27,970 nt of DNA, taken from positions 1 through 27,970 of IMG/VR virus record IMGVR_UViG_3300027754_000342, one strand, 5' to 3'. Under the pieces are notes generated by a model. That model saw nothing but the letters and a program-made list of their open reading frames with translations, ran no database searches and was not told the origin of the DNA. Position 1 is the first letter of the stretch. The number at the start of each line of letters is the position of its first letter. Both the position numbers and the translations under genes were made by a program. The DNA comes from a virus. Below are positions 340 to 25,670 of this stretch, piece by piece.

Positions 340-362
340 GGTGCGGGGATCGGACCCGCACC
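340..362 (-). promoter_or_regulatory. Perfect 8-bp hairpin in the leader of the zinc-knuckle gene
   Basis: On the minus strand, GGTGCGGG pairs perfectly with CCCGCACC around the seven-base loop TCCGATC. It lies between the stop of the gene at 373 and the ATG at 322 and is followed by an A/C-rich stretch with no Shine-Dalgarno sequence. It could be a processing or stability element, or a translational control element. No U-tract follows, so it is not a canonical terminator. The loop resembles a tRNA T-loop, but no rest of a tRNA is present. Confidence 0.5.
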
Positions 363-815: not shown

Positions 816-1027
816 TGCACCCCTCCCTTTGCTGCGTTCAGTGCGTCCTGGGCGATGAGCGAGCAATACACTGCGCGGGGCTGGTCCGACATGCGACCAG
901 CTTCGTGGATGGTTTCCAGAGCGGCGAGCAGCCGAAGGACGGCGGGCTCCGGCGTGGAGCTTACAGCCTGCACGGGCTGCGCGTCCGACATTTGTGCCGG
1001 GGTGGGGTGGTTTGGTTTGGTTTGCAT
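812..1027 (-). CDS. Hypothetical helical protein, first of a coupled trio
   Basis: The product is 71 residues. It starts MQTKPNHPTPAQM, has a Pro-rich N-terminal tail and then a helical region with LRLLAALETIHEAGRM. The start codon is only four bases from a UUCG-capped hairpin. The ATGCAAACC opening is shared with the genes starting at 2922 and 3724. The stop overlaps the next ATG (815). No known family was recognised. Confidence 0.55.
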   Translation of the reverse strand: MQTKPNHPTPAQMSDAQPVQAVSSTPEPAVLRLLAALETIHEAGRMSDQPRAVYCSLIAQDALNAAKGGVQ

Positions 1028-1031
1028 ACAG

Positions 1032-1065
1032 ACTCCCGAAGGAGTTTCGCCCGAATTTCGCGGGC
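1032..1065 (-). promoter_or_regulatory. Tandem hairpins immediately upstream of an ATG
   Basis: Two small hairpins lie in the 50-base gap between the gene ending at 1078 and the ATG at 1027. The first pairs GCCCG with CGGGC (1049-1065). The second is ACTCC-TTCG-GGAGT (1032-1045), whose C(UUCG)G cap is an exceptionally stable RNA tetraloop. The second ends four bases before the start codon, inside the ribosome footprint, so an effect on initiation is plausible. Confidence 0.5.
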
Positions 1066-1077
1066 TCGTCAGTGTAT

Positions 1078-2022
1078 TTAGGCGGCGAGGGGTTCCACTC
1101 GGCGGACTTTACGCGCTACAGCCAGCGCGAGACGGACGGCGGAGGCGTTGCCAGTGGTAAGGAGCGCCCTTAGCGGGGCCGAGTCGCCGATGTGGTGCTG
1201 GCTTTGGAAAGCCTCAATACCTGGCCGGCAGTAGCCTAGCGCGATGGCATCGGCTATGGTTGCAGACACATCGCACAGGCGTGCTATCAGCCGCGCGCGG
1301 CGCTCATCTTTCGCGTATTGGGCCGCGTTTTTCCGCGCCTCGGCTGCGCTCGCCCAGAAAGCGCGCTGGGACGCTAGCTTTTTCGCGAGTCCCTGCTCTG
1401 CCGACTTTTGCGAGGTGGTCGAGTGGTAGCAAGTCGCGCCGAAGTGGGAAATCCAGCCCGTTTCGCAGGTGATTGCTTGGCGTTTCGTTTTAACCCAGCA
1501 GGCGCGCCCGTCTTGGTGGATGCCGATGAGCGGGAGCCCGTCGCGCTCTGACAGTGTGGCGACATCCTCGCGTTCGGCGAGTAGGACCGCCCACTCGGGC
1601 GAGAGACTCACGACGTGGGACGCGTCGGTTTTCCGGTAGGTGCATCCTCGGGAGTATTGGTCGCCCTTGTCGGTGGATGTTTCCGCCTTTGGAAATGGGC
1701 ACGCCGTCCACTTGACCGAGTAATCCGTCGCACCAGAGTAATTTTCCCCGAATTTCACTGCCCGAGCGCCCAGCGTCTCGGCTTTGGATTTGGTCGCGAG
1801 CGCTAGGTCGCGCCGGGCGCCTGGCAACTTCGCGAATGCCGCTGCTGCTTTGCTCGCCGCCCCTCGGCTGGCGAGACTAATGTCGAGCGCAGAGATCGCG
1901 CTTTCGCGATGGTTGGTGCCGATGGCAACGGCAAGCCGTTCGGAATCGTGCTTGGCCTTGGTGGCCGCGTCGGTGGACGCGATGAGTTGGACGATGTCAC
2001 CGATTTTCGTTTGTAGTTTCAT
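1078..2022 (-). CDS. Hypothetical phage protein, 314 aa
   Basis: The product is 314 residues and opens MKLQTKIGDIVQLIASTDAA. The N-terminal third is Ala-rich and helical. The middle (about residues 95-230) is mixed and Cys/Trp-containing, with segments VKWTACPF, RGCTYRKTDASHVVSL and CETGWISHFGATCYH. The C-terminal third is again helical and Ala/Arg-rich. The ORF could extend to 2175, but the added part would run through the hairpin leader and the neighbouring gene, so the ATG at 2022 is chosen; it directly follows the first copy of the duplicated leader element. The Cys and His residues might bind metal. I recognise no family. Confidence 0.6.
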   Translation of the reverse strand: MKLQTKIGDIVQLIASTDAATKAKHDSERLAVAIGTNHRESAISALDISLASRGAASKAAAAFAKLPGARRDLALATKSKAETLGARAVKFGENYSGATDYSVKWTACPFPKAETSTDKGDQYSRGCTYRKTDASHVVSLSPEWAVLLAEREDVATLSERDGLPLIGIHQDGRACWVKTKRQAITCETGWISHFGATCYHSTTSQKSAEQGLAKKLASQRAFWASAAEARKNAAQYAKDERRARLIARLCDVSATIADAIALGYCRPGIEAFQSQHHIGDSAPLRALLTTGNASAVRLALAVARKVRRVEPLAA

Positions 2023-2033
2023 AGGTGGATTCT

Positions 2034-2108
2034 GGTTTCTGGTTTCTGGTTTCTGCTCGGGCCGGAGTGGCTCGCGCCTTCCGCACCCTCGGCCTTCCAA
2101 GGGTGCGG
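2034..2108 (-). promoter_or_regulatory. Duplicated leader element, copy A
   Basis: This consists of a 44-base block (2034-2077) containing three GGTTTCT units, identical to 2368-2411, followed by a hairpin at 2081-2108. On the minus strand the hairpin pairs CCGCACCCTTGG with CCGAGGGTGCGG, twelve pairs including one G-U, around AAGG. The transcript reads hairpin, spacer, CAGAAAC repeats, then the ATG at 2022. Copy B has different stem bases but an equivalent fold. Confidence 0.7.
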
Positions 2109-2123
2109 CGTGGCGCGGTCCTT

Positions 2124-2363
2124 TCAGGCGGTGAAGACGCGGATGCGGAAGTGTGCGCCGTTGAGTTCCCCCCAAACGTCGTAGCTGCCGTCATTTTCTT
2201 GCACTGCGTCCGGCTCATCTATACCATCGATGTCGTCGAGGATGTCGATGATCGTATTCTCTGCGCTGCGGCTGTCGCGCGGCCATTCCACGTCCACCTT
2301 GACGATTTCGTTGTGCCTGATGCTGCGCTTGATTGCCGATTTGATTTGGTCATTGATGTTCAT
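2124..2363 (-). CDS. Hypothetical acidic protein
   Basis: The product is 79 residues, beginning MNINDQIKSAIKRSIRHNEI. A basic amphipathic N-terminus is followed by a very acidic middle (IIDILDDIDGIDEPD) and a beta-like C-terminal half with DGSYDVWGELNGAHFRIRVF. It sits between the two copies of the duplicated leader element, with copy B directly upstream of its ATG. No family was recognised; a small DNA-mimic or modulatory protein is conceivable but unsupported. Confidence 0.6.
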   Translation of the reverse strand: MNINDQIKSAIKRSIRHNEIVKVDVEWPRDSRSAENTIIDILDDIDGIDEPDAVQENDGSYDVWGELNGAHFRIRVFTA

Positions 2364-2367
2364 TGGT

Positions 2368-2440
2368 GGTTTCTGGTTTCTGGTTTCTGCTCGGGCCGGA
2401 GTGGCTCGCGCTTGCTCGCCCCTGGACTGCCAAGGGCGAG
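2368..2440 (-). promoter_or_regulatory. Duplicated leader element, copy B
   Basis: The 44-base block at 2368-2411 is identical to that of copy A. It is followed at 2415-2440 by a hairpin that on the minus strand pairs CTCGCCCTTGG with CCAGGGGCGAG around CAGT (eleven pairs, one G-U). Compared with copy A, the basal stem bases differ on both sides while pairing is kept, so the structure rather than the sequence appears conserved. It precedes the ATG at 2363 by a few bases. Confidence 0.7.
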
Positions 2441-2450
2441 ACGGCGCGGG

Positions 2451-2636
2451 TCAATCGATGCGGGCGTCGCGGACGAAGCACGGGGCGAGTATCGGGCGAG
2501 GCGCGCCCACTATCGCCCACGGGATCTTCCCATCGCCGATAGCGTTAAAGCACCGCATGCTTTCGCCAAGTAGCGGGATTTGTGAGTGTCGGCGACGGTT
2601 TCGAGCGGCGCGGAAGAAGCGGATGAAGTATTTCAT
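2451..2636 (-). CDS. Small basic hypothetical protein
   Basis: The product is 61 residues, beginning MKYFIRFFRAARNRRRHSQI and strongly Arg-rich in the first 20 residues. A hydrophobic segment, IPWAIVGAPRPILAP, follows. The ATG lies four bases after the stop of the gene at 2641-2922, so the two are probably co-translated. An upstream in-frame ATG at 2672 would overlap that gene. The leader element copy B follows its stop. No family was recognised, and the small size keeps confidence modest. Confidence 0.45.
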   Translation of the reverse strand: MKYFIRFFRAARNRRRHSQIPLLGESMRCFNAIGDGKIPWAIVGAPRPILAPCFVRDARID

Positions 2637-2922: not shown

Positions 2923-2961
2923 TTTATTTGGTTTCTGATTTAGATGCGCGGAATTGCGCCT

Positions 2962-2994
2962 TTTCCCGGCTCGGGATTGAACCGTGCCGGGAAA
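2962..2994 (-). promoter_or_regulatory. Perfect 9-bp intergenic hairpin with nested stem
   Basis: TTTCCCGGC (2962-2970) pairs perfectly with GCCGGGAAA (2986-2994). Inside the 15-base loop, CGG and CCG can pair around a seven-base TTCAATC loop on the minus strand. It lies between the stop at 3011 and the ATG at 2922. No U-run follows on the minus strand, so processing or translational control is as likely as termination. Confidence 0.5.
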
Positions 2995-3010
2995 GTGGCG
3001 GAGCTCTTTG

Positions 3011-3724
3011 CTAGTTTGCGGCGATGGCGGACGCGGCGCGGGCTTGGGGGCCGTGGGCGAGAAATCCCACGATGACGGACCGTTGACGCTGACAAAGTCC
3101 ACACGTCGCGCACGTAGCGGCGGATCCGGGGCGCTGAGCGGGACAGACAATAACCTTGTGTCCTGCGGGCGTGGTCATCGCGAGAGGGGAGCCCACGGGC
3201 AAGACGACGACGACGGGACCGCAATCGGCATTTTTCAACTCATCCGCTTCCGCCAGATTGTCGGCGCTCAAATTGATCGTGAAACCGCGAGCGTTCGCGT
3301 CCCGAACTGCGGCGCGATTGCACGTAGCCTCGTTACCGTCGCCGACAACGGGCTTGTGAGTGTACGTCCAACCGCGCTTTCCCGCGTTTGCGTCCACCAA
3401 TTGCGCGAGCATATCGGTGTCGATTGCGTTATTTTCGCCAGGCAAATCGCCCGCCTGGTTGTGCCTCCACAATTGTCCAGAGGGGAGCCCGCTGATGCGG
3501 CTCACGAACGTCTGCCAATCATCCCCTCGCCCTTGTTCGGACACCTTCCGCCAATGTAGCGCGAGGGGTCCGCCCGCGCCGGCGTAACAACCCTTAGACT
3601 TCAGCGGGCACGCGTCGGGACAAGTGGAGTTGCTCGAAGTAGACACGGGAATCGGTCCCGTCTTCACGTTTCCCGATTTCAACGTGAGGTGGAAGCGGGC
3701 GGTTTGTTTGTTTGTGGTTTGCAT
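3011..3724 (-). CDS. Cys-rich phage protein of unknown function
   Basis: The product is 237 residues with two Cys clusters. The first is C35-x3-C39-x6-C46, in the segment STCPDACPLKSKGCYA and followed by GGPLALHW. The second comprises C194, C205, C208 and C211, in VIVCPAQ and ATCATCGLCQRQ. The spacing suggests zinc or an iron-sulfur cluster, and the first segment resembles a recurrent CPxxCPLxxxGCYA motif I associate with unassigned phage proteins. It is the longest gene near the promoter end of the minus-strand arm. The ATG at 3724 follows an A/C-rich leader with no Shine-Dalgarno sequence. The reaction is unknown. Confidence 0.7.
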   Translation of the reverse strand: MQTTNKQTARFHLTLKSGNVKTGPIPVSTSSNSTCPDACPLKSKGCYAGAGGPLALHWRKVSEQGRGDDWQTFVSRISGLPSGQLWRHNQAGDLPGENNAIDTDMLAQLVDANAGKRGWTYTHKPVVGDGNEATCNRAAVRDANARGFTINLSADNLAEADELKNADCGPVVVVLPVGSPLAMTTPAGHKVIVCPAQRPGSAATCATCGLCQRQRSVIVGFLAHGPQARAASAIAAN

Positions 3725-3821: not shown

Positions 3822-3944
3822 GAGAGAAGATTCCCACGGCTTTCAAGTCCCGTCAAAAGATATTTCGTTGCGGGGTGAAGATTGCCCGCAAATCAAGGCT
3901 GGTACAAGAAAAGATCGCATTGCCATTTTCCTTTTTCGCCTTGT

Positions 3945-3992
3945 GACTACGTGTAGTCTCACCTTGCTTTTCTTGTGTGACTACATGTAGTC
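3945..3992 (+). promoter_or_regulatory. Paired palindromic operator-like sites
   Basis: Two copies of GACTAC-NN-GTAGTC lie at 3945-3958 (centre GT) and 3979-3992 (centre AT, a perfect 14-bp palindrome). They are embedded in identical TGT and TCTCACCT flanks, and their centres are 34 bp apart. The second ends seven bases before the ATG at 4000. This is the usual look of a dimeric repressor or activator site, probably bound by the downstream HTH protein or another phage regulator. Confidence 0.65.
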
Positions 3993-3999
3993 TCACCTC

Positions 4000-4497
4000 A
4001 TGAACGAAATCGAAAAAGCAGCGCCGCAAATCAATCGCGAGGCGGTGAAGGTACTCGCGCAAGCCGTCGGCGTGAGGGAAGCGGCGCGCCGCATGGGATT
4101 AGGGGAGGAGCGCGTTATGAAGTGGAGCCAGCGGGATCCGGCAGGGCCGTGGATGACGCAACCAGGAGCCGCCATGATAGCAGCGCCAAGCATTACGGGC
4201 GCAACCCGGCAACTGTCCGCATGTCCGCAGCCTGTCCGCACACCGTCGGAAGCGCTCGCGGATGTAAACGCGGAAAACGGCGCGCGGTCGCGATCAGCGG
4301 CGCTCCGATATTCAGCGCGCGGGCTCGAGCACCTCGCCGACATGAGCCCGTCGGAAGGCGTGCTGCTCGCGCCTCAAGCCGCGTCTCTGGTCAAAGTCGC
4401 ATCCACGGCTGGCGACTGGTCAAGCACGAGCCGGGGGAATGTCCGCATTAACATCCTCGCTGCGGATCCGTTCGCGGTCCAGGTGATCGAAGGTTAA
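4000..4497 (+). CDS. HTH DNA-binding protein (regulator or small-terminase-like)
   Basis: The product is 165 residues. Residues 14-45 form a helix-turn-helix-like segment (AVKVLAQAVGVREAARRMGL, then EERVMKWSQRD). A Pro/Ala-rich linker follows, then helical residues 100-140 and a short beta tail reading VRINILA. From memory of the families, an N-terminal HTH with a C-terminal ASLVKVASTAGDW-like helix is reminiscent of some phage small terminase subunits. The gene is, however, 13 kb from the large terminase and directly behind two palindromic operators, which favours an autoregulated transcription factor. No Shine-Dalgarno sequence is visible. DNA binding is the firm part; the specific role is not. 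Confidence 0.6.
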   Translation: MNEIEKAAPQINREAVKVLAQAVGVREAARRMGLGEERVMKWSQRDPAGPWMTQPGAAMIAAPSITGATRQLSACPQPVRTPSEALADVNAENGARSRSAALRYSARGLEHLADMSPSEGVLLAPQAASLVKVASTAGDWSSTSRGNVRINILAADPFAVQVIEG

Positions 4498-4744: not shown

Positions 4745-4845
4745 TATAATAGATACCAGTGTGTAATAGTTTAAGGCTATTTTCGATCTATTACCTTCTG
4801 GTATCCCTTTACGCTTGACAACTATTACCTTCTGGTATCCCTTTA
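4745..4845 (+). promoter_or_regulatory. Promoter/operator region with a 34-bp repeat period
   Basis: A perfect TATAAT (4745-4750) is followed by GATACCAGTGTGTAATAG (4752-4769), then by two identical 24-base direct repeats at 4788-4811 and 4822-4845 containing ATTACCTTCTGGTATC. The first element is a reverse-complement copy of the repeat core with three differences. A perfect TTGACA (4815-4820) lies between the two direct repeats, with a weak candidate -10 (TATCCC, 4836-4841). No good -35 was found for the TATAAT. The repeats end six bases before the ATG at 4852, so operator control of that gene is likely; replication iterons are an alternative. Confidence 0.55.
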
Positions 4846-4851
4846 TCTCTT

Positions 4852-5229
4852 ATGAACTGCAAAAAATGTGATGGATCAGGAGTGATTGGCGACAAGTTGT
4901 GCCCGGCTTGCCAAATGCCCGTTATGAAAAAGCGCAAAAACCGTGAGGCAACCATTGCGTTTACCTGCGCTGCGCTCAACAGCAAAGAGCCTACAACGCC
5001 ACCGTGGAGGCTGCTTTGGCTGGTGCTGGCGCTAGAGGCAGATCAATGTGGAGAGGTGATGTTGAGCAATGCGGAACTATCCAAGAAGTGTTGTATGAGC
5101 GGTCCAGCGGTCTGGCGGGCCATGAAAGGACTGGCTGGTCTGGGGTTGATTGAGCGAGAGAATCGGGCTGGTGGACGCGGCAACTGCGCGATAGTTCGAC
5201 TGAAAGGATTCGTTGATGCTCTTTCCTGA
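4852..5229 (+). CDS. Zinc knuckle plus winged-helix DNA-binding protein
   Basis: The product is 125 residues. Residues 1-21 carry a CxxCxGxG...CPxC knuckle (C3, C6, C17, C20). Residues 50-120 look like a winged helix of the kind found in phage replication and transcription proteins: a first helix (LLWLVLALEAD), the SNAELSKKCCMSGPAVWRAM helix pair, and a wing ending LGLIERENRAGGRGNCAIVRL. The upstream repeats suggest it is tightly controlled and may bind them itself. It could be a transcriptional regulator or a replication initiator/organiser; the sequence does not decide. The following gene begins inside its 3' end. Confidence 0.7.
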   Translation: MNCKKCDGSGVIGDKLCPACQMPVMKKRKNREATIAFTCAALNSKEPTTPPWRLLWLVLALEADQCGEVMLSNAELSKKCCMSGPAVWRAMKGLAGLGLIERENRAGGRGNCAIVRLKGFVDALS

Positions 5230-6529: not shown

Positions 6530-6669
6530 AACCCACACCCATCACCTGCACCATATGCGGTTCATTGGCCGTAGAGTTTTTGGTGCTGTTTCAGTGCCGC
6601 CGTAATCCGCGCCACATTGCTGACCTTGCGCGGCGGGTGTGGTTTGAGTGCGCTAAAAAGGGGAACTAA
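6526..6669 (+). CDS. Putative 47-residue Cys-containing protein (TTG start)
   Basis: A short ORF starts with TTG in a TTGA overlap with the stop of the upstream gene and ends in a TAA that shares bases with the stop of the convergent glycosyltransferase. It contains CTICG, then FQCRRNPRHIADLARRVWFE followed by Cys, giving four Cys (residues 8, 11, 24, 42) in a pattern compatible with zinc binding. The exact fit between both neighbours is the main support. The rare start codon and small size keep it tentative. Confidence 0.4.
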   Translation: MKPTPITCTICGSLAVEFLVLFQCRRNPRHIADLARRVWFECAKKGN

Positions 6670-7394
6670 AGCTCCACCGGGAGCAGGGGCTTGGCGCGGG
6701 CATCAAGTTTGATGCGCCAGAAGTTTAGGTGGGATTCCATTTTTCCGGCAGGCGTATCATAATTGCAAGTTTCGTGGCGGGAGACGTGATCCTCACCAAT
6801 TCGATCCCAATGATACGACGGCGTGCCATGGTAAATACGAATGTCAAAATAGCTATTTGTGGAAATCCACGAATCAGATGCAACCAGCATGTCTGGTGGA
6901 AACAATTTGTAGATGTAATCCAATTCGGCTGGAGTCAGCCGTTCAAAGAGCGACACGGCCCATCCGTTGCATTTGATTAACTTCGTTCCGTCCTCGTAGT
7001 GGGCTGTGTAATTTTGCCCACAAACTTGAAGCGGGGAGTCGTTGCGCTCGTTCACGTTGTTCCATGCAGCAACCATTTGTGTAATGTGATGCGGATCAAT
7101 CCAGTCGTCGTCATCAAGGATCGTCCAGCAATCGGTGCGAACCATTTTCAGATTGGCAATGTGCTGATAAACTGGACGAACATAAATGTCCTCTTCGTTT
7201 ACAACCTCAATGCGGAGTCGGTGCGATTCTGGGACATTGAGCAAAAGCAGGGGAGTCGGATGGCGATTGATGATGAGCAAACGCGCCCAAGGATAGTCCT
7301 GTTCAATAAATGAGCGAACAGCATGGGCAATTGTTTTGCGTCCAATCGTTTCCATAATAATGGTCACGGTTGGATTTTTGATATGCTTTCTCAT
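6666..7394 (-). CDS. GT2-like glycosyltransferase
   Basis: The product is 242 residues with a GT-A fold signature. The N-terminal beta-alpha unit reads PTVTIIMETIGRKTIAHAVR, then SFIEQDYPWARLLII, and the metal/nucleotide-sugar motif follows at residues 91-98 (TILDDDDW, D94-D97). The C-terminal part has GEDHVSRHETCNY, which may supply the catalytic base. Family 2 enzymes transfer a sugar from a nucleotide donor, in the cytoplasm. The gene starts two bases after the stop of the collagen-like fibre gene, so the two are surely co-transcribed; the Thr-rich repeats of that fibre are a plausible acceptor. It could instead modify host surface glycans or DNA. Confidence 0.75.
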   Translation of the reverse strand: MRKHIKNPTVTIIMETIGRKTIAHAVRSFIEQDYPWARLLIINRHPTPLLLLNVPESHRLRIEVVNEEDIYVRPVYQHIANLKMVRTDCWTILDDDDWIDPHHITQMVAAWNNVNERNDSPLQVCGQNYTAHYEDGTKLIKCNGWAVSLFERLTPAELDYIYKLFPPDMLVASDSWISTNSYFDIRIYHGTPSYHWDRIGEDHVSRHETCNYDTPAGKMESHLNFWRIKLDARAKPLLPVEL

Positions 7395-7396
7395 CG

Positions 7397-8212
7397 TTAA
7401 AATCCCGAAGGTCCAGTTGGACCCGTGGGGCCAGTTGGTCCAGTAGGTCCAGTTGCTCCAGTTAGTCCAGGATCACCAGTAGCTCCAGTAGCGCCCGTAG
7501 CACCTGTTGCTCCAGTAGCGCCCGTGGCCCCCGTAGCTCCTGTTGCTCCAGTAGCACCCGTAGGTCCGGTGCCTGCTGTCCATGCCCAGTTTGGAACAAG
7601 ACCCCAAATAAGCGCACCAGTAGAATCCATTTTGCGAGCCTTTTGCAAATGGGTGTTGGTAAGCTGGTCAATACGAAGACTCGGCTTCAAGTCTGGAAAA
7701 TCCCCTTGATCGGGGAACGGCGCATATGGCATTGAATTAACCGTGCTTTTGCCAGTAAACACTGTTCTCACATAAGCAATGGGTTGCCTCCAAATGTTGC
7801 TTACACCAGCAGTATTGGTATACATTGAGTTTCCCCAACTTGCGCCATATTTAAGGATTGGGCCTGCGGTAATTGTTCCAGCAAAGTTAAATGTCATCTC
7901 AAGCCAAACCCAGTTACCGCTTGTTAGAGTCATCTTGCTATCAATTCCGGTAATAGCTGCGGTCAGCGTCAGGTTGCCTTCGTCCAAAAATATCCATCCA
8001 CGCCGCACATAAGCAAAAATAGAGGTTAGTGCGTCTGACGTAAATCCAGCACCATAAACCTCAAAAGGATGAAGTTTTAATTCCTCTGGTATATTGAGCG
8101 AATAATCTGGTTTGTTTCCAGAATAATCGGAAGAACCACCATAATTGGGTTCTGGAAGTCCGGCAGGAACAACCCGCCGAATTTGGTTTAACGTAGAGTC
8201 GAGTTCTTCCAT
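7397..8212 (-). CDS. Collagen-like tail-fibre/virion protein
   Basis: The product is 271 residues. About 215 residues are globular, with beta-rich segments such as [20 protein letters not shown] and [19 protein letters not shown]. They are followed by 18 uninterrupted Gly-X-Y triplets (GPT, nine [12 protein letters not shown], four GPT, GPS) and a terminal Gly-Phe. Such tracts form trimeric collagen-like stalks in phage fibres. Having the tract at the very C-terminus, with no receptor-binding head after it, is unusual. Its ATG overlaps the stop of the upstream gene as TAATG, and the glycosyltransferase gene follows directly. Confidence 0.75.
7406..7567 (-). repeat. Collagen-like Gly-X-Y coding repeat
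   Basis: Eighteen nine-base units encode Gly-X-Y with Thr at nearly every Y position. Synonymous variation between units (for example GTA, GTT and GTG as the complement of the Thr codon) shows this is not a recent perfect expansion, although the unit is short enough to vary by recombination. Confidence 0.9.
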
Positions 8213-14600: not shown

Positions 14601-17586
14601 AGCGCAGGCTGCTGCGCCGGAAGTAACCGCGCCAGCAGCAAAGGTTGGTGAGGCAACAAGTGCAGAGGCTTCGGCAAAGCAAGAAAAAGACCAGCGAAAT
14701 ATGTTTGATGAGGAGTTTCCGCCAGAAGGTTTCCGTTCCTTTGGCGGAATCAGCATGGATGAGATTTTTTCTGCTGCAAGTAAGCTTTATAAATCGGGCG
14801 TAGACTTTGCTCGTTGGGCAGCAAAGATGTTGAAAAAACTTGGTGAGAAAATTGCGCCTATTCTTAACAGGATTTGGAGGTCGCTTACAATGCAAGACAT
14901 TAAGCCGGAGTTTCGCGAAAGCGGGGCAATCTTTGGCGCTGGGCGTCGTCGTCGCGGAAGCCAACCCGACGCACTCCCGCAGGAGGAGCGGTTCATGACT
15001 ACGCAGGGTTTTTACGAAGGCAGTGCCGACGTGTTTCTAAAAAAGCCGTTGTTCAAGTTTCTTGGCAAGGCTATTAACAAACAGGTCGATCTGGCCGATA
15101 AACGGCTTGGCGACACAACTGGTAAACTTGAAGCATGGGAGTCGAGAACCATCAGTGCCGCGCAGAAAGAAGCCAAAGCTACACTGAGCGATTACATTGC
15201 AGCGCGTGAGGACGGCAGGACTGCGGAAGCTGCAAACATTTTGTCTGGCGCATCGCCTGCTGCTACCGACCTCATTAAAACCATTGGTGAAATTGCCAAA
15301 TACACCGGCAGGGTCAGCACCACGCTTATCCAGCCAAATGGCCGCGTCGGTGTGGAGGTTGTCGCCACAGGAGGTATCCGCAGTCTGGTCAACATGGGCG
15401 ACAAGTTTTGGCCGCGTATTCTTAAGGGAAATTACGATGCTGTGCTGCGCGATCCGTTGAGTGATCCAGTTATGTGGCAGGAAATGGTTGCTGATCTTAT
15501 TGCCAATGGCAACATCGCAACACCTGCCGAGGCGGAGCAATTTTTAAAGGGCGGCAGCAGCAATGACGCTGAAAGTGATTTTCTTGGAAGTCTTTACAAA
15601 GGCCGTGCTAAAGAACGTATGCCAGCTAAGTGGTATGACACAAGCCTAGAAGGATTTGAGAATTGGGCGGTAAAGTGGAGCGACATTGTTTCTAAAATTG
15701 AGGCGTTCGGTCAAAAGATCAGGCCGAATGACACCAACCAGTTTGATGAAGCCTTAAAGCTAACAACTTTTGCACCAACGCAATCTTTCATTAACTCCGT
15801 TGCTTCCCGCGCCTACAATGAGCGCAATGTCGGCACCGCTGCGAAGTATCTGCTCGACGCCCCGCGCCTGCTTGCCTCTGGTCTTTTTCTGACCAATCCC
15901 GTCACCATCGGCATCAACGCACTTTCCAGCAAGGTTATGAACACCTTCACCTATGGACTGTCGGCAAACTTTGCCCGCAACCCGCTGGCAATGTTCAGCA
16001 AAAAGAACAATCTTGACGCTTTCGCACTGGGCGTGTTAAAACGCGACATGGTGCGGCTGCTTTATCGGGATGATGTTCCAGGGCTGGATGCGCTCAAGAA
16101 CTTTGTCAATGGGGCCATGACGATCAGCGGATACGGTGTGGTGGAAAACTTGACCCGCGTGGACAGCTACCTAACGGCACTTGCTTTTCTGCACGACGGG
16201 CTGGCGGCGCACCGCCGCGCGCACGACAGCCGCGCCGCGATGCAGTTCACGGCGTTCCTTGAGCGCAACGGATACGACACCACCGCCATCGTCCGCGAGA
16301 ATGGCACCGGAGACGCCACCGACACCTTCCTGCGCGGCACCATCCGCGACACGCAAGGCGGCTACGCCTACAATCAGGTGCCGTGGTGGACCGACACGCC
16401 GCTTGGCCGGTTCTTGCTCCAGTTCACCAAGTTCTCCACAATGTTTCACCGCAATGTTATGCGGAACGTCATCAAACCGGCCTTCGTAGGAACGCGCGTC
16501 ACGGTGAAGGTCAACGGCAGGACCGTCACGAAGCGCGTCTTTAACGTGCTTCCGCTGCTTTATTTCCTGCTCGGCTCGGCACTCGGCGGTGAAGCAATCA
16601 GCTTCCTCAAGGATAAGGCGTTTGGAATCGAGCGCCGGGATGCCACGCTAAAGGAAATAGCCAACGAAATGAACGAGAGCACAAGGGACGGACTGGTGCT
16701 CATCGCAATCAGGGTAATCAACGACATGCTGACAATGGGGATGCTGGGCATCTTCGGCACACCCATTCAAAGCGTAAAGGATGTTAGTGAGCAGACCAAG
16801 ATGCGTAACCCCCTTTCTCCTCCTGGAGTGTCGCTGGCTACCAATGTAGGCGGATTGATTCAATCAGGATGGGAACAGGGCAAATTAACGCCAGAAGATG
16901 TTGGCGATTTCCTAAAAAGTTCTGTTTCCATGTATCGCTATGGCGATGCTTTTGTGAAAGAACAAAGCCAAAACGCAGGAATGGAATGGGAGTCCGCACA
17001 ACTAAAGTCACGCCGTGATGATGCGTCTTTTATTCGGGCCGCATCTAAACGCTACGCCGCAGAAGCAGGACTACCGCTAGGTCGAGCTACGTCCGCTGGC
17101 AGAACAGCCAAAAGCGAAACTACTCCAATGCGTAGAGACTTGATGGATTCATTGATGACAGGCAATGAGGTAGACGCCCGCAAGACGGTTACTGATTACC
17201 TTAGTGAGTTCCCTTCTATCGCAGAGAAAAAAGAAAAATTGCGCTCCCTTCAAGCTAGCGTTGCACAAAACCAACCAGTTAAAGTTGGCGGCATTGCAGG
17301 AAACGAGCGCCGTATTGAGTTTATGGTATGGGCAAAAAAGAATCTTTCCGTTACTGATGTTGCACGCATTGAAGCAGTAGATCAAAGCTATCGTAAGACA
17401 GCCAATGCTATTGGACTAATGACCGTGCCTACTGCATATCAAGATGAACGGCAAAGTTTAAAAACTGCGCGTGAGATAGAAAAGAAAGAAGTGAAGGCAA
17501 CGGAAGATGAAAACGCTGATTTTTTTGAACGCAATCTTAAACCGCAATACAAACGTAGAACTCAAGGGATGCGTCTTGGCCTATGA
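11623..17586 (+). CDS. Giant 1987-aa internal virion/ejection-type protein
   Basis: The regions in order are as follows. Residues 1-175 are hydrophilic and helical. Residues 180-236 are a Gly/Ala-rich hydrophobic segment of glycine-zipper type, with further hydrophobic stretches to about 360. Residues 420-1010 hold several Pro/Ala/Gln linkers separating small folded units. Residues 1043-1085 hold an amphipathic unit (EIFSAASKLYKSGVDFARWA, then AKMLKKLGEKIAPILNRIWR) that I associate with large phage polyvalent proteins. The C-terminal 900 residues are mostly helical, with hydrophobic stretches near 1406-1440 (RLLASGLFLTNPVTIGINAL) and 1640-1662 (LPLLYFLLGSALGG). No enzymatic motif is evident. 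Size, membrane-active segments and place suggest an ejected internal core protein; a tape measure is the alternative. Its TGA overlaps the terminase ATG. Confidence 0.6.
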   Translation: MPLAPDFTGSAIDQPTRADSLPEPIAADVMPQPIGQVPPPPQQPPIWDDLQVALKDVGDEDRSHAVEAWRDNVSRYGYEKTAWSQDNEDALQRFADDEQKKIASEVKFERGDKLYKQLVNDFVTDPMRPGDALVQAYRDGVIDKADKEQLRSAFEIQDQMRMQSEEQRLAGGNQKLKAVGVGLGRGAAFTAGAIGGAKVASFGTALIPVVGETVVAPIVTGLVGGAIGGTIAAAGYDELVQSNFESAMAASKLNPNYTTAGELLSFVIPGIAGLAKGVKRFALVAENLGRKEALKQAATYVAVSGGIGAASAPIMGAIDRWKNAALDLGHGPQADLLDPKSIVANTVLAIMLGNLGVKFTKFNAAEAASIHQRGMAGQKLSPAESEMFNTINRKMAENPNSFVFDAEQATFRNPKTGEQMPMSGAGAARTQRNPAQPQQPASGPGGGAPPPTGGAAPPPQQGAPPPQQGAPPPQPRTAPRRFNSQQEFNDFMDTAFTSGDAAAGGEAWKTANAQGRARWFAAWMKSKVTASGLEGRAGRTEGTGDAATWFATSVLRGSSNAEHAKFVVEQQSAASAKAAPKASAAAAASASPPPVAGVPGSQQGRPGGVPNVPRGGSPVVAPEPTVPVTQTPKTTAALAGTVVTLPVTTATLAVKPTIVAPLATPPLAVAPVVEPAPAAAAASEVATPVPAAPAPQSPAPTPLMNEVMTELRNWKDIGKNPTEDYFSNVESIQAAQEKVGKPVFKAALKAFVRDVGVSDETSWDSLTEEDAITEFAGLLHGKSKIAKRYIDAAKKQIATPAAPVAQAPAAQAAASEVATPVPAAPAPQSPAPVAGKPVEQMTPEEFDSAVRTLNKKKTSEMSPADLEPSKKLIAVLDNVTQPPPKMGGLGPDEITQKILIDAGYVEKAKAKKGRLTEKGRNELSELKKGIRSFESELFNIQEEIASDIPISASAVDTYGIKLPEGWTKQGELYVPPAPATSPAPATPAAQAPAAQAAAPEVTAPAAKVGEATSAEASAKQEKDQRNMFDEEFPPEGFRSFGGISMDEIFSAASKLYKSGVDFARWAAKMLKKLGEKIAPILNRIWRSLTMQDIKPEFRESGAIFGAGRRRRGSQPDALPQEERFMTTQGFYEGSADVFLKKPLFKFLGKAINKQVDLADKRLGDTTGKLEAWESRTISAAQKEAKATLSDYIAAREDGRTAEAANILSGASPAATDLIKTIGEIAKYTGRVSTTLIQPNGRVGVEVVATGGIRSLVNMGDKFWPRILKGNYDAVLRDPLSDPVMWQEMVADLIANGNIATPAEAEQFLKGGSSNDAESDFLGSLYKGRAKERMPAKWYDTSLEGFENWAVKWSDIVSKIEAFGQKIRPNDTNQFDEALKLTTFAPTQSFINSVASRAYNERNVGTAAKYLLDAPRLLASGLFLTNPVTIGINALSSKVMNTFTYGLSANFARNPLAMFSKKNNLDAFALGVLKRDMVRLLYRDDVPGLDALKNFVNGAMTISGYGVVENLTRVDSYLTALAFLHDGLAAHRRAHDSRAAMQFTAFLERNGYDTTAIVRENGTGDATDTFLRGTIRDTQGGYAYNQVPWWTDTPLGRFLLQFTKFSTMFHRNVMRNVIKPAFVGTRVTVKVNGRTVTKRVFNVLPLLYFLLGSALGGEAISFLKDKAFGIERRDATLKEIANEMNESTRDGLVLIAIRVINDMLTMGMLGIFGTPIQSVKDVSEQTKMRNPLSPPGVSLATNVGGLIQSGWEQGKLTPEDVGDFLKSSVSMYRYGDAFVKEQSQNAGMEWESAQLKSRRDDASFIRAASKRYAAEAGLPLGRATSAGRTAKSETTPMRRDLMDSLMTGNEVDARKTVTDYLSEFPSIAEKKEKLRSLQASVAQNQPVKVGGIAGNERRIEFMVWAKKNLSVTDVARIEAVDQSYRKTANAIGLMTVPTAYQDERQSLKTAREIEKKEVKATEDENADFFERNLKPQYKRRTQGMRLGL
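13660..14117 (+). repeat. 62-bp direct repeats in an Ala/Pro linker
   Basis: Nearly identical 62-base segments at 13660-13721 and 14056-14117 differ at two positions and both encode AAASEVATPVPAAPAPQSPA. A third, decayed version lies near 14605. They mark duplication of a flexible linker between folded units of the giant protein and could recombine to change its domain content. Confidence 0.85.
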
Positions 17587-20300
17587 CAGCTAAAGCCAAG
17601 CCCGCGCCGCGCATTAGTTACGACAACTTTGCGCTGCCTTCCGGTTACGAACCGTGGCATCTGTGTTTGACTAAGTTTGGACTTGGTAAAGGCGAGGAAA
17701 AACTGAAATGGTTTAAGCGTCTTGTTACTGAGCTTTGGCCGGAACCGTTATTTATGTGGGACAGGTGGAGCGACCTGTTCTTTGGCGCGTTGTGCGGTGC
17801 GAAAGAAACTGTTGAGCGAACTACTGGCGAAAAGATTGAATCCGATTATCCGTGGTGGGAGCAATTAACAGCTACAGGAGCGGCGGGATGTATTGACGCC
17901 AACACACGGATACTTGATCCAACTACCGGGGAATCCCCTACCGTCGAACAACGTTACAAAAGCAAAAAGCCGTCGTGGGTAATGACACTTGGAGGTCCGA
18001 TTCTGGCGGACGTTCCGTTCATAAAAGGAACGGCAGAACTATTTGAGGTTCTATTGGATGACGGATCAAAATTTACCGCCACGGCAAATCATCGAGTTCT
18101 TACGCCGGATGGATACAGGTTTGTTTCCGAGCTTTCCGTCGGTTCAACGCTGACAGGATACGCGCTTTCCCATCCTCAGACCACTTTGGGCATTGCCCCT
18201 TTAGTTCAGAACGAAGATGCGCGCCATTGCTTGAGTAAAGCTCAAGATTCTCAATCCGATTATCGTCCTTCTTTTTGTTCCGGTGATGAACCACCTCTGT
18301 TTTCAAAAGCGGTCGGCCAATGTGATTTGACATTACCAATCGGTGCTCAAGAACATATCTCTTCCTCATCCTTGTCGCCATCGGATGACCCGGAATGTAA
18401 AGCAGAACGTAGCCATCCTCATCAATCACGCGGCCACCATTCCATGTGGAGCACCGCTCACCCTTCCACGCAGTTGGAAAAGTCCTTGTCTCTCCATTCC
18501 TGCGAAGAAATAGAGATACACGAGTGTGTGTTGTCCCAATCGTCTTGCCAATCTGGTTCAGAGAACAACCTTTTGCGTTCATCTCAAAAACAAGAGTGCG
18601 ATTCTTTTCACAGGCACCAAGCGGGCCATGTCGAGGAGCAGGAATTTCATTCATGGGCTGACTATACGGTGCAGCGGAGACTGGTGCAAGCGATAACGGG
18701 TGTTGGAAGCAGAATTTATTACGATCTGACAGTGCCGGAGCAGCACCACTATTTTGCGGAGGGTGCCATTCATCACAACACTGGCAAAAGTTCTAGGGCC
18801 GCGTTGTGGATTCTTTGCAACTGGCTATGCGCCCGCGAGCATACAACCTGCATGTTGACCTCAACTAGCGTCACTGCGCTTAAGCAGCGTATTTGGAGCG
18901 AACTGGTGGACTGGATACAGAAGTGTAAACAGCCATTGTCCGACCCCACGATTGGCTGGCTACAAATTGTGCCATCCGACACCATTATTCGGTGGAGCGG
19001 TGAGGATACGAAAAGCGCAATCTTTGGGCGTGCAGTCGATCAAGGAGGTTCTGTGGACAACGCGGTTGGGCGTATCAAGGGTATTCACAATCGTCGCGTG
19101 TTTGTTGTGACGGATGAGATGACGGCTATGCCCGAGGCTATTGCCAAGGCGTGTCGCAACTTGGATTCCGGCACAATGGAGTTTCAATTTATTGGGCTAG
19201 GCAACGCCACTGACTATTCTGACCAGCATGGTATTTATTGTGAGCCGGTGGACGGCTGGAACAGTGTTACGGTTAATGACGAGTTCTGGCTGACCAAGCT
19301 GGGCGGTTGTTGCGTGCATTTGGATGGGCACAAATCGCCATCATTGGATAATCCGGCCAAGTATCACTTTTACATCGGACGCAAGAAGCTGGAAAAGGAT
19401 GCGCGCTTCTTTGGTGGCGAGAACACCCCTGACTATTGGCGCGAGTGCCGAGGCTTTTGGGCACCGTCTGGATTGTCCACAACGGTCATGGATGCGTTCT
19501 TGCTATCACAATTCAATACCGCTGACAAAGCTGTGTGGAAGGCTCGCTGGGAGATGGGCGCTGGCTTTGACGTAGCGTTTGAGGGCGGCGACAGGCGCGT
19601 GCTTTATCCGTTCAAGTTTGGCGAGTTTGCCAGCGGCGTTAAAGGCATTGAGTTTCAAGCTCCGGTCATTGTGAACATCGACATGACGCAGGACAAACGC
19701 TTCATCCACTACGGCATTGCTGCTGCTGTAGAAGAGACATGCCGTAACTACAAGATTGACGGCAAGTCGCATCCAATCCTGCCTCACAACTTGGCGTGTG
19801 ACGTAACAGGCGAGGGTGCCGGTCCGTTTGGCATTATGTCTGGAAGCTGGTCACGCGACATTATTCCCGTGGAGTTCGGTGGTGCAGCGGAAAAGACGGC
19901 GGTATCCGCAGACCGACCAACAACGTGGCATGAGCTTTACGGAAACAAAGTGACAGAAATCTGGTATTCAATGCGTCGATTTATTGAAGGCGGACAGGTG
20001 AGAGGGCTTACCGACGCCGACACAATACGCGAGTTGACTTCCCGCGATTACGTCCGTAAGAACAACAAGACCCATGTGCTGCCTAAGAGCGAGATGAAGA
20101 AGCTCAAGTCCCGCAGTCCCGATTTGGCAGATGCAGCCTGCATTGCTGCCTTTGTGCTTCGCAAGAAGGGAATTATGCCAGCAAGCGTAGCGGACAATGT
20201 GGTGATAGATTCAACCGCTTGGAACGCGGCTGCTGAGAAAATGAACATGGAAGGAAACGAATCAGACTACGAAGATTCAAATTCAGCTTTTGCAATATGA
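17583..20300 (+). CDS. terL: Terminase large subunit precursor, interrupted by an intein
   Basis: The precursor is 905 residues; removing intein residues 103-399 leaves a 608-residue terminase, a normal size. The spliced Walker A loop reads GAAGTGKSS. Walker B is VFVVTDE (D511, E512, precursor numbering), followed by a coupling motif FIGLGNAT. The C-terminal nuclease carries acidic residues in AGFDVAFEGGDR (D663), LACDVTGEGAG (D740) and SPDLADAA (D847, D850). The enzyme powers DNA translocation into procapsids and cuts concatemers, docked on the portal encoded downstream. ATGA overlaps at both ends (17583 and 20297) show coupling. Since the intein splits the ATP-binding loop, packaging activity should depend on protein splicing. 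A reverse-strand endonuclease gene lies within the intein. Confidence 0.93.
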   Translation: MTAKAKPAPRISYDNFALPSGYEPWHLCLTKFGLGKGEEKLKWFKRLVTELWPEPLFMWDRWSDLFFGALCGAKETVERTTGEKIESDYPWWEQLTATGAAGCIDANTRILDPTTGESPTVEQRYKSKKPSWVMTLGGPILADVPFIKGTAELFEVLLDDGSKFTATANHRVLTPDGYRFVSELSVGSTLTGYALSHPQTTLGIAPLVQNEDARHCLSKAQDSQSDYRPSFCSGDEPPLFSKAVGQCDLTLPIGAQEHISSSSLSPSDDPECKAERSHPHQSRGHHSMWSTAHPSTQLEKSLSLHSCEEIEIHECVLSQSSCQSGSENNLLRSSQKQECDSFHRHQAGHVEEQEFHSWADYTVQRRLVQAITGVGSRIYYDLTVPEQHHYFAEGAIHHNTGKSSRAALWILCNWLCAREHTTCMLTSTSVTALKQRIWSELVDWIQKCKQPLSDPTIGWLQIVPSDTIIRWSGEDTKSAIFGRAVDQGGSVDNAVGRIKGIHNRRVFVVTDEMTAMPEAIAKACRNLDSGTMEFQFIGLGNATDYSDQHGIYCEPVDGWNSVTVNDEFWLTKLGGCCVHLDGHKSPSLDNPAKYHFYIGRKKLEKDARFFGGENTPDYWRECRGFWAPSGLSTTVMDAFLLSQFNTADKAVWKARWEMGAGFDVAFEGGDRRVLYPFKFGEFASGVKGIEFQAPVIVNIDMTQDKRFIHYGIAAAVEETCRNYKIDGKSHPILPHNLACDVTGEGAGPFGIMSGSWSRDIIPVEFGGAAEKTAVSADRPTTWHELYGNKVTEIWYSMRRFIEGGQVRGLTDADTIRELTSRDYVRKNNKTHVLPKSEMKKLKSRSPDLADAACIAAFVLRKKGIMPASVADNVVIDSTAWNAAAEKMNMEGNESDYEDSNSAFAI
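18100..18654 (-). CDS. HNH homing endonuclease encoded antisense inside the intein
   Basis: The product is a complete 184-residue protein. Residues 20-53 form a helix-turn-helix (FEMNAKGCSLNQIGKTIGTT, then HTRVSLFLRRNG). Residues 71-90 read WNGGRVIDEDGYVLLYIPGH, the strand pair that precedes the nuclease in this family. The HNH core spans 102-139: LEHRLVMSNHIGRPLLKTEV, then VHHRNKKKDDNRIENLEL with H123/H124, N126, N132 and N136. Both this layout and the DNR-x-x-NL-x-L ending are typical of phage HNH (HNH_3-type) endonucleases that cut DNA to drive homing. The ORF begins and ends between intein blocks B and F. It is on the opposite strand from all surrounding late genes and so needs its own transcript; a candidate promoter lies just upstream. 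The catalytic residues appear intact. Confidence 0.85.
   Translation of the reverse strand: MNEIPAPRHGPLGACEKNRTLVFEMNAKGCSLNQIGKTIGTTHTRVSLFLRRNGETRTFPTAWKGERCSTWNGGRVIDEDGYVLLYIPGHPMATRMRKRYVLEHRLVMSNHIGRPLLKTEVVHHRNKKKDDNRIENLELYSSNGAHLRSELKGQCPKWSEDGKARILSALNRRKARKQTCIHPA
18661..18689 (-). promoter_or_regulatory. Candidate antisense promoter for the HNH gene
   Basis: Read on the minus strand, TTGCAC (18684-18689) and TATAGT (18661-18666) are 17 bases apart. The -10 matches five of six consensus bases, the -35 only three. The ATG at 18654 is six bases beyond the -10, so a transcript would be leaderless or nearly so. The same bases encode intein residues (DYTVQRRLVQ) on the sense strand. 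Confidence 0.3.
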
Positions 20301-24756: not shown

Positions 24757-25670
24757 TTCTTGTCATTGCGTTCTGTCATAAAGACAAAGCAAAAGCCGTT
24801 CGTCTTGCCAACTGGATTGCAGAGTTGGGCGGCACTAACAAACATGATCTTTTGCTTGGGTATCACGAAGACACCACACCGGACCCAATTCACGAAATCC
24901 TTAAACCCCACTTCAACCACGTTGGCGGATTCAAGATCAGCGACTCGGAGACAAACTATCCGGCAATTGCCAATATCATGTGGCATGAGTGTTTGAAAAC
25001 CGTTGCAGATCAATTTAATGCACCGTGGTTTTGGATGGAGCCAGACGCCGTTCCGTTGACACCGGATTGGCTAGACAAGATTGAGGACGAGTATCTTAAG
25101 GCCAAGAAGCCCTTTATGCTTGATCGCGTAATTACGCCAACACGCTCACACAACAGCGGCGTTGGAGTATATCCTGGCAGGGTTCGCGACTACACTACGC
25201 GCCTGTGGGAGCTTTCAAACATGCCGTGGGACGTGTTTCTAGCCGAAGAGATCACGCCGTTCACGCATCATACAGAACTGATTCACGACAAATTCTATCG
25301 TGTTTGGGACGACCCCGACAGCGGACCTCCCGTTTTTCCTGACGCCAATTCTCTTTCCATCATTGAACCGAGTGCCGTGTTGTTTCATCGAAACAAGGAT
25401 GGCAGCTTAATTGAACGTCTTCGCGAATCGCGGGGTAGTGTAAGTGTAACACACCCCGTTCTCATCGGCGGGGAGATTGCCGGTGCAACCCCGGCCCCCG
25501 CAACTGTTGATGTTGCTGCAATGCTTCGTCAAATTGCTGAATTGCAGGAAAAGCTAAAAGCGCAAACTGTAACAACTCCGGTTACAGATGGGAAAAAGCA
25601 GCGCACGCCAACGCAGATTCAAGCCGCAAAAGATCGCATGGCAAAAGCGCGAGCAGGGAGAAAACCGTGA
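24753..25670 (+). CDS. Glycosyltransferase-like protein
   Basis: The product is 305 residues. The start MILVIAFCHKDKAKAVRLAN and a later WFWMEPDAVPLTPDWL segment (E96, P97, D98) fit a GT-A-type nucleotide-sugar fold with a modified acidic metal motif. A further FLAEEITPFTHHTELIHDKF may belong to the acceptor side. Residues 250-305 form a separate tail with an AAMLRQIAELQEKLKAQ coiled coil and a Lys/Arg end. The ATG overlaps the scaffold stop and the stop overlaps the next GTG. The substrate is unknown. Confidence 0.6.
   Translation: MILVIAFCHKDKAKAVRLANWIAELGGTNKHDLLLGYHEDTTPDPIHEILKPHFNHVGGFKISDSETNYPAIANIMWHECLKTVADQFNAPWFWMEPDAVPLTPDWLDKIEDEYLKAKKPFMLDRVITPTRSHNSGVGVYPGRVRDYTTRLWELSNMPWDVFLAEEITPFTHHTELIHDKFYRVWDDPDSGPPVFPDANSLSIIEPSAVLFHRNKDGSLIERLRESRGSVSVTHPVLIGGEIAGATPAPATVDVAAMLRQIAELQEKLKAQTVTTPVTDGKKQRTPTQIQAAKDRMAKARAGRKP

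Follow-up and report, generated by a model that had tools for sequence, protein, structure and literature searches.

The viral DNA analyzed here (IMG/VR record IMGVR_UViG_3300027754_000342, positions 1 to 27,970; this whole stretch of 27,970 nt is called the window) carries three minus-strand genes, C, D and E, with two related structured elements at their junctions (Table 1). Element W2 separates genes C and D, and element W1 separates genes D and E. The gene starts at 2022 and 2363 given in the first-pass annotation are correct. Each element starts 3-6 nt past the stop codon of the upstream gene, and its hairpins are followed by an A/C-rich leader and then the AUG. The minus-strand start codons at 3724, 2363, 2022, 322 and 64 are all preceded by A/C-rich tracts, often AAACC/AAAACC repeats, and a Shine-Dalgarno sequence is missing from most of the window's listed start sites.

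Table 1. Features at the locus and related ribozymes (window positions unless another genome is named)
Feature	Position	Strand	Remarks
Simple hairpin GGTGCGGG-TCCGATC-CCCGCACC	340-362	-	Between stop codon and A/C leader; no P1 or P3 seen
Hammerhead ribozyme, minimal type I	1026-1077	-	Directly after gene E stop
Gene E	1078-2022	-	314 aa, unknown function; downstream of W1; relatives 46-74% identical
Identical block, copy 1	2033-2077	-	45 nt; P1', P3 and A/C-rich leader
Element W1	2054-2121	-	Fold z -4.3; G001 ortholog with two double compensatory changes; covariance model
W1 P1	2117-2112/2078-2073	-	Internal loop ACG/AA
W1 P2	2108-2097/2092-2081	-	
W1 P3	2071-2061	-	GCC-ACUCC-GGC
Gene D	2124-2363	-	79 aa; between W2 and W1
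Identical block, copy 2	2367-2411	-	45 nt; P1', P3 and A/C-rich leader
Element W2	2388-2452	-	Fold z -3.3; R1 model E 1.3e-11
W2 P1	2448-2444/2411-2407	-	Internal loop CGU/CAA
W2 P2	2440-2430/2425-2415	-	
W2 P3	2405-2395	-	
Gene C	2451-2636	-	61 aa; upstream of W2; G001 homolog immediately precedes the element and gene E
Element W3	2945-3006	-	After DUF7227 gene stop; type II 3' half AAGGCGCAATTCCGCGC; same architecture
Type II hammerhead, G002	32186-32244 (L178 12186-12244)		Hammerhead_II 25.8 bits, below gathering score
Type II hammerhead, G004	about 51147-51205		

The inner stem P2 counts 12 pairs in W1 (CCGCACCCTTGG/CCGAGGGTGCGG) and 11 pairs in W2 (CTCGCCCTTGG/CCAGGGGCGAG), with one G.U in each, which agrees with the first description of two hairpins that differ in sequence yet stay paired. 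That description had missed the outer stem P1 (CGCGCC/GGCGCG), set apart from P2 by a 3x2 internal loop, as well as the small third hairpin P3 within the identical block and the placement behind the stop codons. The block itself, previously given as 44 bases, is indeed identical in both copies but is 45 bases long; its 23-base core has no further match in the window, and a chance occurrence is not expected. The stretch from P3 to the AUG consists mostly of unpaired AGAAACC repeats, and the AUG lies 40-50 nt from the structure. The folds of W1 and W2 both beat dinucleotide shuffles (z in Table 1).

Several other features of the window were recorded. Positions 3942-3998, just ahead of an ATG at 4000, contain two near-identical copies of TGTGACTACRTGTAGTCTCACCT, each with the palindrome GACTACRTGTAGTC, which likely represent an operator pair. 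A 24-base repeat in two exact copies, spaced 34 bases from start to start (4788-4845), is located ahead of an ATG at 4852. At the boundary of the minus-strand open reading frames 6666-7394 and 7397-8212, a nine-base tandem repeat of the CCAGTTGGTCCAGT type (7386-7579) may encode collagen-like triplets. On the plus strand, positions 17583-20300 encode a 905-aa protein that matches a terminase weakly and an intein-splicing domain at E 1e-5, which falls below Pfam's cut-off; its homolog in a related phage (G001) aligns to residues 16-101 and 399-905 only, as if the intein were absent there.

Gene E has four relatives in viral contigs, with an identity of 74% over the aligned protein in G001 (L003), 56% in G002 (L044), about 55% in G004 (L162) and 46% in G003 (L045). 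Some of the more distant relatives have no element at the junction before gene E. In G001 the element stands between the gene C homolog and gene E, and gene D is missing together with the second copy. A search for relatives of gene D found none. Since gene D and the second copy are both absent in G001, gene D was probably gained in the lineage of the window along with the second leader (or lost in G001). In an annotated phage collection, neither gene E nor the large proteins tested had a match, and in a Verrucomicrobiota sample gene E and the RNA model each had a single marginal match, which chance can explain. Pattern scans with the 3' block over viral contigs and 84,980 bacterial and archaeal species genomes yielded, beyond two phages, matches that looked coding or due to chance.

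The structure is under selection, judging from compensatory changes in homologs that were not picked by their pairing. The W1 ortholog in G001 (G001a) has the same length as W1 (68 nt), an identical P1, a near-identical P3 and an internal loop of the form AC./AA, and its P2 differs from that of W1 by two double compensatory changes, one G.U to G-C change and one C.A mismatch. Three further copies (W3, G002ii and G004ii) were found solely via an identical 17-nt flank; their P2 sequences differ while pairing is kept, with four double compensatory changes between W3 and G002ii. Across the flank-found set, 91% of the P2 cells are paired when each copy keeps its own arms, which ranks first among 720 arm permutations, against 56% on average for swapped arms and at most 67% for derangements. 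Some copies were recognized partly by pairing, which biases the overall pairing statistics, and only the flank-found set is clean in this respect. Because MAFFT misaligned copies of different length, a structural alignment made by hand served for counting covariation. The first-pass annotation had taken the compensatory differences between W1 and W2 as direct evidence for selection; selection is supported, but mainly by the G001 ortholog and the flank-found copies, whereas comparing the two window copies alone is weak evidence: the perfect 45-nt block lies right beside a hairpin half in which the copies resemble each other far less. This pattern suggests that W2 arose by recombination or duplication together with the inserted gene D and not through stepwise compensation. 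Relatives that had lost the pairing, which would have contradicted the original proposal, did not appear among the homologs.

A covariance model (R1) trained on just W1 and G001a was searched against 79 kb on the sense strand (E<=0.02). It recovered W2 and six more copies (G001b, G002b, G004ii, G004c, W3 and G004b), all directly behind stop codons. Adding the ortholog G002c and G002ii brings the family to 11 copies in four phages, the window and three related ones. W3 (fold z -3.7; R1 E 0.013) shares its exact 17-nt flank with G002 and G004, where its 3' half AAGGCGCAATTCCGCGC is found unchanged at other gene junctions. All 11 copies begin 1-9 nt behind an open frame of 50 codons or more, a distance within which only 6-7% of strand positions fall. 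The copies stand before unrelated genes, and on the coding strand G.U pairs outnumber C.A pairs. A loose descriptor (5-pair P1, 3x2 loop, 9-pair P2) showed no clear genome-wide enrichment over shuffles, and the claim of a family therefore relies on sequence, structure and position together.

The consensus order is P1, 3x2 internal loop, P2, P1', P3, A/C leader and AUG. P1 and P2 together form a stem of 14-18 pairs plus the internal loop, with P2 contributing 9-12 pairs closed by a loop of 4-7 nt, and P1' is followed by zero to two purines and P3. A C-G closing pair belongs to the consensus, and the internal loop mostly has ACN in its 5' strand and AA or AC in its 3' strand, with GUC/GA in the c copies and CGU/CAA in W2 as exceptions. 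The loop of P3 reads AAUUCC, AUUCC or ACUCC, except in G001b, where P3 carries a different loop. In the type II copies (W3, G002ii and G004ii), P3 has the form GCGC-AAUUCC-GCGC and overlaps the 3' strand of P1, so that P3 and P1 may compete. A pseudoknot between the P3 and P2 loops was discarded, since just a single copy allows it. In W3, the P2 arm (window 2960-2995, minus strand) ends in CGG-UUCAAUC-CCG, resembling a tRNA T arm, and G002ii has a similar UUCCACC loop.

The element could be set apart from several familiar RNA classes. A search of Rfam 15, including lax filters and E-values up to 10, placed no family at the element and gave only chance matches far below gathering scores, such as a flavivirus stem-loop model (18.8 bits against a threshold of 38.3) and microRNA models. 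The hammerhead core (CUGANGA ... GAAA ... UH) is absent from W1, W2, W3 and their homologs, and Rfam hammerheads occur at other junctions only. An intrinsic (Rho-independent) terminator was rejected as well, with no U tract (the tail reads AAGGCGCG) and no minus-strand terminator site at the elements. Despite the T-arm likeness of W3, the element is no tRNA either: ARAGORN detects a single tRNA, tRNA-Glu at 25429-25504. The first-pass annotation had called the structure a leader. Control of translation is not supported, nor is a riboswitch or thermometer gating the start site: folding predictions for W1, W2, G001a, W3 and G004ii leave the AUG and the A/C leader unpaired, and the structure sits close behind the stop codon of the preceding gene. 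For G002ii, a weak helix of 3 pairs is predicted to reach into the leader, but it spares the AUG.

Hammerhead ribozymes are found in the same phages. The type I hammerhead behind gene E in the window has a complete core (CUGACGAG...CGAAAC...GUC) and scores 19.4 bits with Hammerhead_1 (E 0.014 in a 121-nt search), which is below the gathering score. Its G001 homolog (L003 5921-5970, plus strand) is reported by Rfam under another topology. Both contain a possible AUG inside stem I. The predicted cut after GUC would place this AUG 3 nt behind the newly formed 5' end and so give a near-leaderless mRNA, unless translation really begins at the following ATG (991). The type II hammerheads of G002 and G004 are located directly past another stop codon and are followed by the same kind of A/C leader. 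Behind gene E, a hammerhead occupies the junction in the window and in G001, an element does so in G002, and G004 has only a short A/C leader there. The element and the hammerheads thus occupy the same kind of slot, since they alternate at this junction and both follow stop codons and precede A/C leaders. Perreault et al. (2011; PMC3088659) described hammerheads that flank single genes in prophages and proposed that these ribozymes cleave long phage RNAs to give gene-length mRNAs.

We tentatively propose that the element is a structured RNA in the polycistronic early mRNA of these unclassified, uncultivated phages, where it most likely marks a cistron boundary by cutting or shielding. The neighboring genes would share one transcript, and the long stem would be cut by host RNase III or a similar endonuclease acting on double-stranded RNA; alternatively, the stem would serve as a roadblock that shields RNA from exonucleases. 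With a protected 3' end on the upstream message and a separate 5' leader on the downstream one, expression would presumably be affected; the hammerheads in equivalent slots would do the same job through self-cleavage. RNase III would be the obvious host enzyme, although a stem of this length with an internal loop is short for it. Also counting against the proposal, the conserved internal loop and P3 loop exceed the needs of a plain double-stranded substrate, and the element is missing at many junctions of the same operons.

The post-stop position (1-9 nt) and the high stability of the stems (-25 to -44 kcal/mol, flanks included) would also suit a hairpin that stabilizes 3' ends or intercistronic regions without specific cleavage, either REP/BIME-like or as a stem-loop setting message ratios in an operon. 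We regard this as rather unlikely: such a hairpin needs neither a conserved P3 nor an internal loop, and the alternation with hammerheads points to cutting. That same alternation at the junction after gene E, together with the hammerhead-type slot, fits an undescribed class of small self-cleaving ribozyme interchangeable with hammerheads, in which the P1-P2 internal loop and P3 would form the catalytic core that cuts the polycistronic mRNA. Conservation in unpaired positions (AC./AA-AC in the internal loop, AAUUCC/ACUCC in P3) and the missing Rfam match agree with it. An active site would hardly tolerate the divergent internal loops of the c copies and W2 or the deviating P3 loop of G001b, however, and the variation of the internal loop in three copies argues against a self-cleaving RNA. 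The copies are also few, and no known ribozyme core was recognized in them. A new ribozyme is therefore less likely than a processing or insulating element, and we think it improbable.

It is more doubtful still that the element is a binding site through which a phage or host RNA-binding protein controls the downstream gene by translation or antitermination. A stem with a conserved internal loop beside a separate hairpin with a conserved loop would make a plausible protein site, but the downstream genes are unrelated and the unpaired AUG is remote from the structure in W1 and W2. Least probable is a function at the DNA level, as a cruciform, a recombination site or a mobile palindrome moving genes such as D. 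Gene D is indeed flanked by two copies sharing the 45-nt block and is absent at that place in G001, but recombination at a repeat can be a side effect of homology. The copies are moreover always in coding orientation and tied to stop codons, their stem sequences differ, and the coding strand has an excess of G.U over C.A pairs.

The proposed processing or insulating element can be compared with several known systems. T7-like phages carry RNase III processing signals (R0.3-R1.3) between the cistrons of their polycistronic early mRNA, in stems that contain an internal loop. The element is likewise an intercistronic stem with an internal loop, but its stem is shorter and it has an additional P3 with a conserved loop and an A/C leader, and no homology is claimed. 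The REP/BIME palindromes of enterobacteria are found after stop codons in operons and also have mismatched stems; the element differs in that its copies are few, not near-identical, located in phages and equipped with an internal loop and P3. RAGATH motifs are structured RNAs discovered near ribozymes, and the element follows the same neighborhood logic, yet it matches neither RAGATH-1-hammerhead nor the other RAGATH families in Rfam 15. With the hammerheads reported by Perreault et al. (2011; PMC3088659) between phage and prophage genes it shares the post-stop, intercistronic position, the same phages and an equivalent slot, but it has another fold, no CUGANGA/GAAA core and no Rfam match, and its cleavage is putative.

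The element provides a concrete candidate RNA family for intercistronic mRNA processing in phages with little or no Shine-Dalgarno sequence. Earlier ribozyme classes came to light through such ribozyme neighborhoods, and the finding would bear on why ribozymes are kept between phage genes.
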